From a virus, in IMG/VR virus record IMGVR_UViG_3300037346_000553, positions 1 through 20,944 of that record: 20,944 bases of DNA; one strand, given 5' to 3'. A program made the translations under genes and the position numbers. The notes below the pieces were generated by a model. That model did not search any database. It was not told where the DNA came from and saw only the letters and a program-made list of their open reading frames with translations. Position 1 is the first letter of the stretch. The number at the start of each line of letters is the position of its first letter. Below are positions 4,749 through 11,228 of this stretch, piece after piece.

Positions 4749-4820
4749 GCGGATATCGTATAACGGTTATTACTTTAAACTTCCAATCTAAAAATAAAGG
4801 TTCAATTCCTTTTATCCTCT
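4749..4820 (+). tRNA. tRNA-Gly (anticodon UCC)
   Basis: A 72-nt cloverleaf. Acceptor GCGGATA pairs with TATCCTC (one C-T mismatch); the D-arm (TCGTATAACGGTTATTAC) closely resembles that of the enterobacterial glyT tRNA; the anticodon loop CTTCCAA has anticodon TCC with T33 present; the T-arm is AAAGG-TTCAATT-CCTTT, a perfect 5-bp stem. The anticodon stem has one A-C mismatch. The 3' CCA is not encoded. It is AT-rich and slightly degenerate, as is common for phage tRNAs, but appears able to fold. Confidence 0.82.
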
Positions 4821-4862
4821 CAATTTGGACACGGTGTCTAGATGTTTAATTAAATTAATGTT

Positions 4863-5042
4863 ATGAAGAAAATCTTATCTCTTTTTGTTGCAGCAGTATT
4901 ATTTGCTGCGTGTGGTAATGTTAACGCAAAAGCTGAAGCTGAAGCAGTTGCAGCAGACTCTACTATTGTTACGACTGACGTTATTGATTCTACTGCAGTA
5001 AGTACTGAAGGTACTAATGAAGTGGAAGTAATCACAGAGTAA
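4863..5042 (+). CDS. Small lipoprotein (59 aa)
   Basis: ATG at 4863. The N-terminus MKKILSLFVAAVLFAACG is a lipoprotein signal peptide with lipobox FAAC, so the Cys at position 17 should be lipidated. The mature part is short, acidic and Ala/Glu/Thr/Ser-rich (AKAEAEAVAADST, then VIDSTAVSTEGTNEVEV) and is probably disordered. It lies between tRNA-Gly and a GC-rich RNA-like island. Function unknown; a host-envelope location is inferred from the signal. Confidence 0.7.
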   Translation: MKKILSLFVAAVLFAACGNVNAKAEAEAVAADSTIVTTDVIDSTAVSTEGTNEVEVITE

Positions 5043-5129
5043 CAAACAACTGTGTCTCGGTGCACTATGTCTTTCAGAAGTTCAACGACGAGGTCTCGGT
5101 AGACAGAACGCATCTGACCCTACCCAAAT
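5043..5129 (+). ncRNA. GC-rich island with D-arm-like hairpins (possible ncRNA or tRNA debris)
   Basis: This non-coding stretch is much richer in GC than the genes around it. GTCTCGGT occurs at 5054-5061 and again at 5093-5100, each within a small tRNA D-arm-like hairpin (GTG/CAC and GTCT/AGAC stems). An alternative fold pairs GGTAG (5098-5102) with CTACC (5120-5124) around a CAGA/TCTG stem. I cannot complete a full cloverleaf here. It may be one structured RNA together with the following tRNA-like element, or remains of decayed tRNA genes. Confidence 0.35.
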
Positions 5130-5201
5130 GCCGAAGTAGAGCAATCCTCGAGCAATCATCATAGTAGCGCGTGGCGTCGGGTTCGATTCCTACCTTCGGC
5201 T
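5130..5201 (+). tRNA. tRNA-like element, atypical
   Basis: Exactly 72 nt, with a perfect 7-bp acceptor (GCCGAAG with CTTCGGC, discriminator T) and a T-loop segment GGTTCGATTCC. The T-stem needs a bulged C. The D-arm is reduced (GAG-CAATC-CTC, no GG). The best anticodon stem (GCAAT with GTAGC, one A-A mismatch) gives loop CATCATA, which would place TCA as anticodon but lacks T33. The acceptor and T-arm argue for tRNA origin; the middle is abnormal. It may be a degenerate tRNA, a tRNA-like RNA or an unusual suppressor type. Confidence 0.45.
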
Positions 5202-5273: not shown

Positions 5274-6992
5274 ATGCAAGAGCAGATAACGCAAACTTTA
5301 GATAAAATATTAAAAGACAATCTTCTTGGATCCAATTTTCAATTTAGAACTGATCAAAGAGAAACGGTTGAAGCAATCTGTCAAGCTTATTTTCAAGATC
5401 CAAATGGCACTGTTGTAATTGATGCACCAACTGGTGCAGGTAAATCTATTATAGCAATAGCATCTAGTTTAGTTTTAATTGAACTTGGTAAAAAGGGTTA
5501 CATAATTACCAGTGATTTAAGTTTACAGGATCAATATGAATCAGATTTACATAGACTAAAACTACAGTGGGGTTCAATCAAAGGCGTTGATAATTATGAG
5601 TGCGCAGTAAATGGACTGCCATTCAGTTTAGGCGACTGTCGATTAAAAGGTATGAGCTATGAAAAGGCAAAAGAACTAAGCTGTTATTCTGATTGCGGTT
5701 ACTTAACTGCTAGGGATGTAGCTATCAACAGTAGAATCTCCTTACTTAATTATGCGTTTTGGTTGATCCAGAGAAATTATGTAGAAGATAAAAAAGCAGA
5801 AGAAGGTGGATCTCCTTTTCAAGAAAGAGATTTTGTATTTTTCGATGAGGCTCATAAAATTGATGAGATTGTACAAAATCACTTTAGTCCAAAAATCAGT
5901 AAATCTATTTTGGTTACAGTTAGGCTATTGGATAAATTTTTATTACGTTATGGATTTAGTAGACATCATATACCTAAAGATAAATTAGAAAAATTATTTT
6001 ATATTCTATCAACATCTTCTAATAAGACTGAATTGTTAATAGCAATGGAAGAATTAAAAAAATTCTTTGAAATCTATTTAACAATCAGCAAAGATGTAAA
6101 AGCTACTTCCAAAAAACGATATAGTGATTCATCAGTACCGAAAGATTGGCAATCTGCATTTGGTTCATTTGATAGGATTAAAGATATGCATTGTAAATTT
6201 GATGATTACATTGAAATCTTAAAGCAAGTAGGTGTTGACAAAATGGTACCAAACCAAACGGACGAAGAGGTAGAATTTACATGTATCGAAGAACAATGGT
6301 TAATCAAAAAACATTTACACGAAAGATCTGCATTTAAGGTTTTTATGAGTGCAACTATCGGTGACCCTGTTAGCTATATGAAAATCATGGGAATAGATAA
6401 TGCTAAATTTGTTAGACTATCAAATGATTTTAATTATGACAAATCTCCAATTATATTTGTAAATAAGTATAAATTATCCATGCGAGAAAAAACTGCAAAT
6501 TTACCTCATGTTGTTGAAATCATGGATAAGATTATTAGTAAACACAAAGGTCAGCGTGGAGTAATACATTGTGGTTCTTATGAGTTTATGAATTATATAA
6601 TGTCTAAAAGTAAGCATACATTTAGATTAATAAATTACGAAAATTCAAAAGAAAAGGCCAGTACATTAGAATTATTTAAAAAGAAAGAAGGTGCTGTTTT
6701 AGTTGGACCATCAATTTTGGAGGGGTTAGATTTAAAAGATGACATGAGCAGGTTTCAAATCTTTTTTAAAGTACCATATCCATCATTAGGTTCTCCTCAT
6801 ATTAAAGCAAAAATGAATCAAGTACCAGGTTGGTATGATTGGAAAACAACCGTTAGTTTTTTACAAGGCGTTGGTCGTTCGGTTAGAAGTAAAGATGATT
6901 GGGCTGTGACATATGTATTAGATGCTTGTTTTAAAAACTTACTTAATAAGATACCACCAAATGTCAAAGATCGTATTAAAACTTTAAGATAA
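5274..6992 (+). CDS. XPD/DinG-like superfamily 2 DNA helicase with probable Fe-S cluster
   Basis: This 572-residue protein has the ordered motifs of an SF2 helicase: Walker A APTGAGKS (51-58), DEAH (191-194), SAT in FMSATIGDP, a late VLVGPSILEGLDL segment and motif VI QGVGRSVR (531-538). Between Walker A and DEAH lie four cysteines, C110, C122, C137 and C141, the place and number of the 4Fe-4S ligands in XPD/DinG helicases. Such enzymes unwind DNA 5'-3' using ATP. The likely role is phage DNA replication, recombination or repair. ATG at 5274 is preceded by an A-rich leader. A terminator-like hairpin follows. The class is clear; the exact subfamily is not. Confidence 0.88.
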   Translation: MQEQITQTLDKILKDNLLGSNFQFRTDQRETVEAICQAYFQDPNGTVVIDAPTGAGKSIIAIASSLVLIELGKKGYIITSDLSLQDQYESDLHRLKLQWGSIKGVDNYECAVNGLPFSLGDCRLKGMSYEKAKELSCYSDCGYLTARDVAINSRISLLNYAFWLIQRNYVEDKKAEEGGSPFQERDFVFFDEAHKIDEIVQNHFSPKISKSILVTVRLLDKFLLRYGFSRHHIPKDKLEKLFYILSTSSNKTELLIAMEELKKFFEIYLTISKDVKATSKKRYSDSSVPKDWQSAFGSFDRIKDMHCKFDDYIEILKQVGVDKMVPNQTDEEVEFTCIEEQWLIKKHLHERSAFKVFMSATIGDPVSYMKIMGIDNAKFVRLSNDFNYDKSPIIFVNKYKLSMREKTANLPHVVEIMDKIISKHKGQRGVIHCGSYEFMNYIMSKSKHTFRLINYENSKEKASTLELFKKKEGAVLVGPSILEGLDLKDDMSRFQIFFKVPYPSLGSPHIKAKMNQVPGWYDWKTTVSFLQGVGRSVRSKDDWAVTYVLDACFKNLLNKIPPNVKDRIKTLR

Positions 6993-10272: not shown

Positions 10273-10845
10273 ATGCTATATACTTATAATAAAGAAGATC
10301 TTAATTTTTATAGGTTAAGTACTTCAAGAATGTTAATTCTTTTAATTACTGTTGCTTCATTAATTTCATTTGCATCAGCCCTTGTTGGAAAATCTATCGG
10401 TAAAACCGAATCCACTATTGAATATAGTGAAATGGAAAGAATTATATTGATTAAAGAAACTGATGTTTTTTCTAAGGAAAAGGTAGTAACTATGTTAAAT
10501 GAACTCAACGTAAAGTATCCTCATATTGTACTTGCACAGTCAATGATTGAAACTGGTAAATGGAAGAGTAAAATTTTTATGGAAAACAATAATTTATTTG
10601 GTATGAAAGAGGCTAAGCAAAGAATTACAACTGCTGGCGGTACACAATATAATCATGCATATTACAACCACTGGAGAGAAAGTGTTTATGACTACGCGTT
10701 TTACCAATGTAGATATCTTCATAATATTAATTCTGAAAATGAATATTTTCAGTATTTAGGTGCAAGTTACGCAGAAGATCCTAACTACTTAAATACAATA
10801 AAAGCAATAATAGAAAAAGAGGGCCTTAAGGCCCTCTTTAATTAA
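10273..10845 (+). CDS. Membrane-anchored glucosaminidase (Bax/FlgJ-like)
   Basis: Residues about 19-37 form a membrane anchor (MLILLITVASLISFASALV). The rest is a glucosaminidase domain (PF01832 type): LAQSMIETGKWKSKIFMENN with the catalytic Glu93, NNLFGMK (106-112), then the YNHWRESVYDYAFYQ segment and LGASYAEDPNYLNTI typical of the Bax group. It should cleave peptidoglycan glycan strands from a membrane-bound position. In a phage it may aid wall opening at lysis in addition to the GH19 endolysin, or local wall remodelling. Its last codons lie within a 24-bp palindrome that also acts as a terminator. Confidence 0.85.
   Translation: MLYTYNKEDLNFYRLSTSRMLILLITVASLISFASALVGKSIGKTESTIEYSEMERIILIKETDVFSKEKVVTMLNELNVKYPHIVLAQSMIETGKWKSKIFMENNNLFGMKEAKQRITTAGGTQYNHAYYNHWRESVYDYAFYQCRYLHNINSENEYFQYLGASYAEDPNYLNTIKAIIEKEGLKALFN
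10816..10839. terminator. Bidirectional terminator between convergent genes
   Basis: A perfect 24-bp palindrome: AAAGAGGGCC, TTAA in the centre, GGCCCTCTTT. The arms are preceded by A and followed by T on both strands, the form of a rho-independent terminator working both ways. It lies inside the last codons of the glucosaminidase gene, just before the convergent stop codons that overlap by three to four bases. Confidence 0.8.
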
Positions 10846-11228
10846 AGTTCATGATAACCATCATTAGCCTGCTTTAGATAATTATAAGATTGTGAGATAT
10901 GATCTTGGATCCAACCTGGAATATCCTTTTCCATATTTCCAAGTTTTTCTTGTAAGTCTAATGCATCATCAATTAATGCAGCTAATAATTTTTGTGCCAT
11001 ACTAACTTCATGATCACTCTGTTCGGTTAAATTTGAAGTTTTCCAATGTGGGCTTTGGTGAGCACCTCTAGTTGGATGAACATTATTAAATCCTTGATAT
11101 TCAGGTGTATCGTATGCATTTGTATTCCCACCAGCCATTTCATCCCAAAATGATTTAAAGTCAGAAATAGTACCCTTATAGTGGCGTATTTTACTTAAGT
11201 CTTGTCTTTCTGTATTATGATTCATCAT
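10842..11228 (-). CDS. Hypothetical phage protein, minus strand (128 aa)
   Basis: A soluble protein. The C-terminal half (MAQKLLAALIDDALDLQEKL, then DIPGWIQDHISQSYNYLKQA) resembles a small helical module seen in many T4-like phages, where an acidic helix is followed by 'W(V/I)Q..I..A..Y(I/L)'. The N-terminal half is polar and Asn/His-rich. Its function is unknown to me; a virion- or prohead-associated role is possible. Its stop overlaps that of the plus-strand glucosaminidase gene. It is last in a minus-strand operon of three. Confidence 0.65.
   Translation of the reverse strand: MMNHNTERQDLSKIRHYKGTISDFKSFWDEMAGGNTNAYDTPEYQGFNNVHPTRGAHQSPHWKTSNLTEQSDHEVSMAQKLLAALIDDALDLQEKLGNMEKDIPGWIQDHISQSYNYLKQANDGYHEL

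Follow-up and report, generated by a model that had tools for sequence, protein, structure and literature searches.

A small RNA family beside the tRNA genes of large phages, with a palindromic hairpin loop that may join two copies of the RNA

The window, a 20,944-nt stretch of viral DNA (positions 1 to 20,944 of IMG/VR record IMGVR_UViG_3300037346_000553), carries on its plus strand a tRNA-Gly(tcc) gene at 4749–4821 (RF00005, 53.4 bits). This was the only tRNA called by ARAGORN in the window, and the program called no tmRNA there. Downstream lie an ORF of 59 aa (4863–5042, +), whose product is lipoprotein-like as judged from a predicted signal sequence, a GC-rich non-coding island at 5043–5201, and a phage DNA helicase gene (5274–6992, +; phrog_2488, E 4.5e-109). 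The order tRNA-Gly, small ORF and RNA-A, our name for the RNA in the 5' half of the island, recurs in another viral locus, L021. Elsewhere in the window, at 10742–10848, a weak match to sraA (27.5 bits; cut-off 56) lies over a strong terminator-like hairpin between convergent ORFs.

The initial annotation described the island as a GC-rich, RNA-like segment crossed by no coding frame and ending in an atypical tRNA. Its G+C content is indeed 51–53%, against mostly about 22–40% in the flanks (100-nt windows), and no plus-strand ORF of at least 50 aa crosses it, the nearest stopping at 5042; on the minus strand, two mechanical ORFs (87 and 53 aa) do overlap the island. An RNA island was the right reading, except that the 5' half is not tRNA-derived and belongs to an RNA family of its own, independent of tRNAs. 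The island is real, and it consists of two parts, RNA-A (5048–5126, +) and a tRNA-like remnant (5130–5201, +), and it is the second part to which the description of an atypical tRNA applies. Covariance models, which had been proposed as a check, gave different results for the two parts. Our model R1 (74 positions, built from 18 copies) matched 5048–5126 in cmsearch at 62.3 bits (E 3.9e-13), marking a divergent copy of an unlisted structured RNA family, and 5130–5201 scored 17.2 bits against RF00005 in cmscan, under the cut-off of 29. Compared with shuffled sequences, folding energies were unremarkable for the island (z 0.25), RNA-A (z 0.08) and the tRNA-like piece (z -0.94). Since energy alone is silent, the evidence that the island is not a chance feature is comparative.

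The tRNA-like piece has the perfect 7-bp acceptor (GCCGAAG/CTTCGGC) and the T-loop (TTCGATT) previously noted, but just three of the five T-stem pairs form. It retains G1-C72, C2-G71 and U73, which we take to be glycine identity elements. The 5' strand of the D-arm is missing, and GAGC flanks the D position on both sides, so there is no D-stem; the computed fold of 5130–5201 had no anticodon stem, and an anticodon arm bearing U33 was likewise absent. The suggestion of a UCA anticodon did not hold up: the D-arm and anticodon arm could not be drawn with confidence, ARAGORN calls no tRNA here, and with the D-arm 5' strand gone no UCA tRNA can be read from the segment. The idea of a decoy tRNA found no support. 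In L021 the corresponding position is occupied by a tRNA-like gene that shares this acceptor, retains the whole D-arm and has an odd central part of about 50 nt (32.9 bits). A 20-mer from the window's piece was found in no stretch among viral contigs. We prefer, with somewhat better than even confidence, to read 5130–5201 as a decayed tRNA or tRNA-like gene.

Relatives of the locus were first reached via the helicase gene 3' of the island, which led to nine viral loci. In a BLAST search of the island against the loci then collected, its 5' half matched in four (L004, L005, L010 and L011). A 19-mer from this half of the island was present in 24 IMG/VR stretches, and three further scans with other parts of RNA-A added loci, one of them returning at least 120 stretches, many of which were chance matches. 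When R1 was run over 47 whole viral records, exactly one copy was found in 39, that is, in the window and 38 others; none was found in four named phages (LR756500, Tenacibaculum phage PTm1, Sphingomonas phage PAU and Lak-C1) or in four fragments. Because most of the 47 records had been preselected as RNA-A carriers, these counts speak to single copy and not to prevalence. The window's helicase was found in 18 of 45 records, some of which may be incomplete, so RNA-A is also present in records where the helicase was not found. The nearest named phages by helicase are large phages, several of them putatively of Bacteroidota.

No Rfam family overlapped RNA-A in the window or in six loci with good copies (one scan listed 150 of its 155 matches), and BLAST of the window and a good relative against 50,697 phage records returned just tRNA ends or chance-like matches. 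Among bacterial genome contigs, the 19-mer scan hit a single stretch of coding-like DNA, a chance match with the rest of RNA-A absent; RNA-A was found in none of 60 genomes from the phylum of that stretch, in a scan run without a positive control. A search of the open-access PMC library found nothing on RNA-A. As judged by these comparisons, RNA-A is a previously unlisted, strongly conserved small RNA of large phages, present once per genome.

For analysis of the fold, 89 loci chosen as RNA-A carriers, representing 58 distinct sequences, were aligned with R1; the alignment was fitted to the R1 structure. Covariation shows that RNA-A folds into an irregular hairpin, P1a-P1b-P2, often capped by a GNRA tetraloop, and a second hairpin, P3. 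Standard pairs filled 99.7% of the 1207 pair cells, and both sides had changed in 11 of the 21 pairs, giving 98 cells with changes on both sides where shuffles gave 21.2. Sliding the partner by one to three columns lowered pairing to 24–56%. The initial annotation had named a lack of conserved pairing in related phages among the grounds for refuting its reading, and such pairing is present among the 58 distinct sequences. With the invariant U-G pair excluded, G-U cells numbered 36 and A-C cells 2, from which it follows that the folding strand is the tRNA-sense strand, and thus RNA.

In the window, P1a pairs UCUCG (5055–5059) with CGAGG (5089–5093), and 18 of the 58 distinct rows have U-A in place of C-G at its pair 11-38. 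On the tree, the three P1a changes all agree (p 0.25), too few for significance. P2 (5068–5084, +) varies in length and sequence, with changes on both sides in two of its four aligned pairs; most relatives have the GNRA tetraloop, and the window has a longer loop. In P3 (5098–5124, +), eight of ten pairs change on both sides. The repeated motif GTCTCGGT noted earlier does occur twice on the plus strand, as read from the sequence at 5054–5061 and 5093–5100, but neither copy lies in a D-arm-like hairpin: the family fold puts the first in the 5' strand of P1a and the second in the linker entering P3. The linker's TCTCGG was considered as an alternative P1a partner and rejected: where P1a switches from C-G to U-A and reads UCUUG/CAAGG, the linker does not switch with it and still reads TCTCGG or TCCCGG. 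Single-sequence folding energies of eight RNA-A copies were not better than those of shuffled sequences (z -1.57 to 0.62). The energy of the family fold came to within 1 kcal/mol of the minimum for 69 of the 89 copies; for the window's copy the difference was 4.3 kcal/mol.

The 4-nt core of the P3 apical loop is a perfect palindrome in 49 of 53 distinct rows and is of three kinds, CGCG, GGCC and CTAG; shuffled columns, which ignore relatedness, gave a mean of 22.2 palindromic rows and a maximum of 35 in 20000 trials. The four non-palindromic cores are GGAC, CGTG (self-complementary with G-U), CGTA and the window's CGCA. Five distinct rows stand outside the 53: L004, L014, L017 and L021, which have a longer P3 and no palindromic loop, and L201, whose TCTAGA is aligned differently. 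The adjacent bases 58 and 59 switch together from G:C to T:A (three T:A rows; one exception, with A alone). Neighbouring bases are unable to pair within one hairpin, yet these change together, as a kissing homodimer predicts. On a tree built without the loop columns, all five supported independent switches at 57/60 agree (p 0.06, which that number of events leaves short of significance); the tree is poorly resolved, with 9 of 49 branches starred. The five perfect palindromes tested gave loop duplex energies between -4.8 and -9.1 kcal/mol, and the window's loop gave -2.3. Self-complementarity in 49 of the 53 cores suggests a kissing homodimer, and RNA-A probably pairs with a second RNA-A copy via the P3 loop.

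The window's RNA-A is the lowest-scoring of the 89 aligned copies. Its P3 apical hexamer, ACGCAT (5108–5113, +), breaks the palindrome that most relatives keep; two pairs of the model, 17-34 and 51-67, are broken (A-C) as read from the sequence, and in window coordinates P3 shows an A-C mismatch at 5103/5119. At alignment columns 15, 17, 20 and 108 it has letters unique among all rows. With the palindrome and two pairs broken, this appears to be a divergent copy or one in decay. Decay is one possible cause, coevolution with something different another; a divergent copy followed by a decayed tRNA-like gene may mean that the unit is losing function in this phage.

The setting of RNA-A was compared over 63 distinct contexts, after 26 of the 89 copies were set aside as context repeats by a simple rule. 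Counting tRNAs on the same strand, 47 of the 63 have a tRNA start no more than 12 nt downstream, the gap being 3–6 nt in most contexts; when both strands were considered in 44 contexts, no reverse-strand tRNA was nearest. These 47 tRNAs comprise 39 Gly, 3 Asp, 2 Leu, 2 Thr and 1 Tyr. In eight contexts a terminator-like stretch and no tRNA lies behind RNA-A, and in the other eight neither was called. The last group includes L106, which has a terminator-like stretch missed by the pattern, and the window, L010 and L021, each of which has a tRNA-like gene behind RNA-A. RNA-A thus usually sits where tRNA processing would free its product, and a tRNA is not required. Each positive record has one RNA-A copy though the arrays hold up to 26 tRNAs. 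The tRNA-Gly association may reflect shared descent rather than function. A gene for RtcB, considered as a partner of RNA-A, was found in none of 39 records, and the analysis turned up no protein partner.

Other RNA genes share these neighbourhoods. RNA-C is a permuted tRNA-like, Y RNA-like gene consisting of a T-arm, an acceptor hairpin, a D-arm and a closing end helix (AGGATGG/CCATCCT, for example) that varies in step between loci. It lies upstream of RNA-A in L018 (4762–4831, -) and L033 (2033–2145), and also in L019, L004, L106, L109, L128, L168 and L170; its matches to YrlA are sub-threshold (33–35 bits; cut-off 69). In L166, L167, L171 and L174, RNA-C is replaced by a conserved stretch, GTTGAGTCTTTYAGAACAAGACATAAAAGAATTCGAAACC ... 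GGTGACCTTCTAAAA, without an obvious ORF and directly upstream of RNA-A. At about 4785–4880 in L003, a T-arm and acceptor 3' strand are followed by an acceptor 5' strand and D-arm, with the look of a permuted tRNA or a Y RNA-like gene. RNA-B genes are tRNA-like, with the anticodon region replaced by a conserved CAGTACTTCG...AAGGAACATRGMCGTG domain, and occur in L010 (1419–1525), L018 (4562–4651, -), L033 (2153–2254), L030, L034 and L036–L042. The RNA-B of L018 is the single Tyr call above; ARAGORN called it tRNA-Tyr, and the arm seems not to pair as an anticodon stem. Four close relatives of the window carry permuted tmRNA genes called by ARAGORN (L003, 4250–4537; L005, 4253–4540; L010, 4403–4688; L011, 4402–4687), with the tag ANDNFALAA and a start that overlaps a tRNA-Ile call. 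Finally, two of 46 records, L027 (3781–5529, +) and L012 (5320–6906, +), encode TROVE/Ro60-like proteins that are 42% identical to each other; both genes lie within a few kb of RNA-A, near Y RNA-like genes.

Several other explanations of RNA-A were weighed. That a decayed tRNA cluster makes up the entire island, with RNA-A and the tRNA-like piece both tRNA remains, is suggested by the clear tRNA derivation of 5130–5201 and by the position of RNA-A in tRNA arrays. RNA-A, however, is conserved and covarying across 58 distinct sequences without a cloverleaf, and no Rfam tRNA match to it was found in the window or the six good-copy loci among the matches listed. Its conservation refutes the decayed-tRNA reading for RNA-A, and we regard a decayed cluster as extremely improbable. 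The same very low standing goes to a DNA element, a site for replication, packaging or recombination with inverted repeats that merely resemble RNA helices. Single copy per positive record, inverted repeats and palindromic centres would all suit such a site, but the excess of G-U over A-C on one strand, together with the tRNAs directly behind RNA-A on that strand, argues against it. A cis-acting leader serving the processing, folding or antitermination of the next tRNA, and of tRNA-Gly especially, would explain why tRNA-Gly follows in 39 of the 63 contexts, mostly at 3–6 nt. Against this stand the eight contexts with a terminator-like stretch and no tRNA, the eight more with neither called, and the single copy beside arrays of many tRNAs; a leader therefore seems quite unlikely.

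Two further explanations involve proteins. The palindromic P3 loop might be the binding site of a dimeric protein, without RNA-RNA kissing, since palindromes are typical of such sites too and there is one element per positive record. Three different palindromes, however, mean that symmetry is kept and not the letters, and we consider a protein site unlikely. RNA-A might instead be part of a phage Ro60/Y RNA particle, working beside RNA-C, which is found no more than 300 nt upstream in 14 of the 63 contexts; the proximity of TROVE to RNA-A in both TROVE-bearing records fits as well. YrlA (RF02553) is a tRNA-like RNA. Like YrlA and the Y RNAs, RNA-A is non-coding and neighbours tRNA arrays, and Y RNA-like genes often precede it. 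But RNA-A has no tRNA-like part and no RF02553 match among the 150 of 155 matches listed, the weak matches being on RNA-C; 49 of the 63 contexts lack RNA-C by the pattern used, and TROVE is confined to the two records out of 46, many of which are fragments. Membership in such a particle is very unlikely.

The reading we favor is that RNA-A is a trans-acting, homodimeric RNA released from tRNA arrays, the window holding a divergent copy with a decayed tRNA-like gene behind it; from the comparative evidence we put its probability at about 0.6. RNA-A would be a free-standing small RNA gene of about 74–91 nt, co-transcribed with the tRNA array. Since a tRNA starts 3–6 nt behind it in most contexts, the enzymes that process neighbouring tRNAs would release it, and elsewhere a terminator would set the 3' end. 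P3 of one molecule would kiss P3 of another, as the covariation of adjacent loop bases suggests, and the resulting homodimer would use its near-invariant internal loops and linker to act in trans, the likeliest role being that of a scaffold or a protein-binding RNA.

Small self- or mutually complementary loops join RNA molecules in the HIV-1 DIS and in phi29 pRNA; the viruses, contexts and sizes differ from those of RNA-A. The small stable RNAs rnaC and rnaD of T4 are annotated beside a phage tRNA cluster, as RNA-A is, but they are 139 and 119 nt long, and R1 did not match them (best 6.1 bits, E 0.71, filters off). A report on GOLLD and ROOL (PMC12286853) describes these as phage and prophage RNAs often near tRNA islands that form homo-oligomers via kissing loops, with many GOLLD members exceeding 800 nt. 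RNA-A is likewise found at phage tRNA islands; it differs in its short length, two hairpins and unrelated sequence. The GOLLD, ROOL and OLE Rfam models gave no RNA-A match in the window or the six loci among the matches listed. RNA-A thus appears closest in style to GOLLD and ROOL, and by the Rfam test is not a member. More tentatively, and at somewhat less than even odds, an RNA of about 74 nt cut from a tRNA array and self-assembling by a palindromic kissing loop might be a miniature, independent counterpart of the GOLLD/ROOL nanocages, its contacts conserved as symmetry and not as sequence.

The usual view of tRNA arrays in large phages is that they help translation. RNA-A is a non-tRNA gene kept in single copy beside such arrays in many phages, with the covariation signature of an RNA homodimer. 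It represents a further structured RNA family, for whose annotation a single covariance model suffices. For GOLLD and ROOL, which are hard to test by mutation on account of their size, it is still an open question why phage tRNA islands keep self-assembling RNAs. If the dimer is real, RNA-A would offer a very small natural test case for that question.
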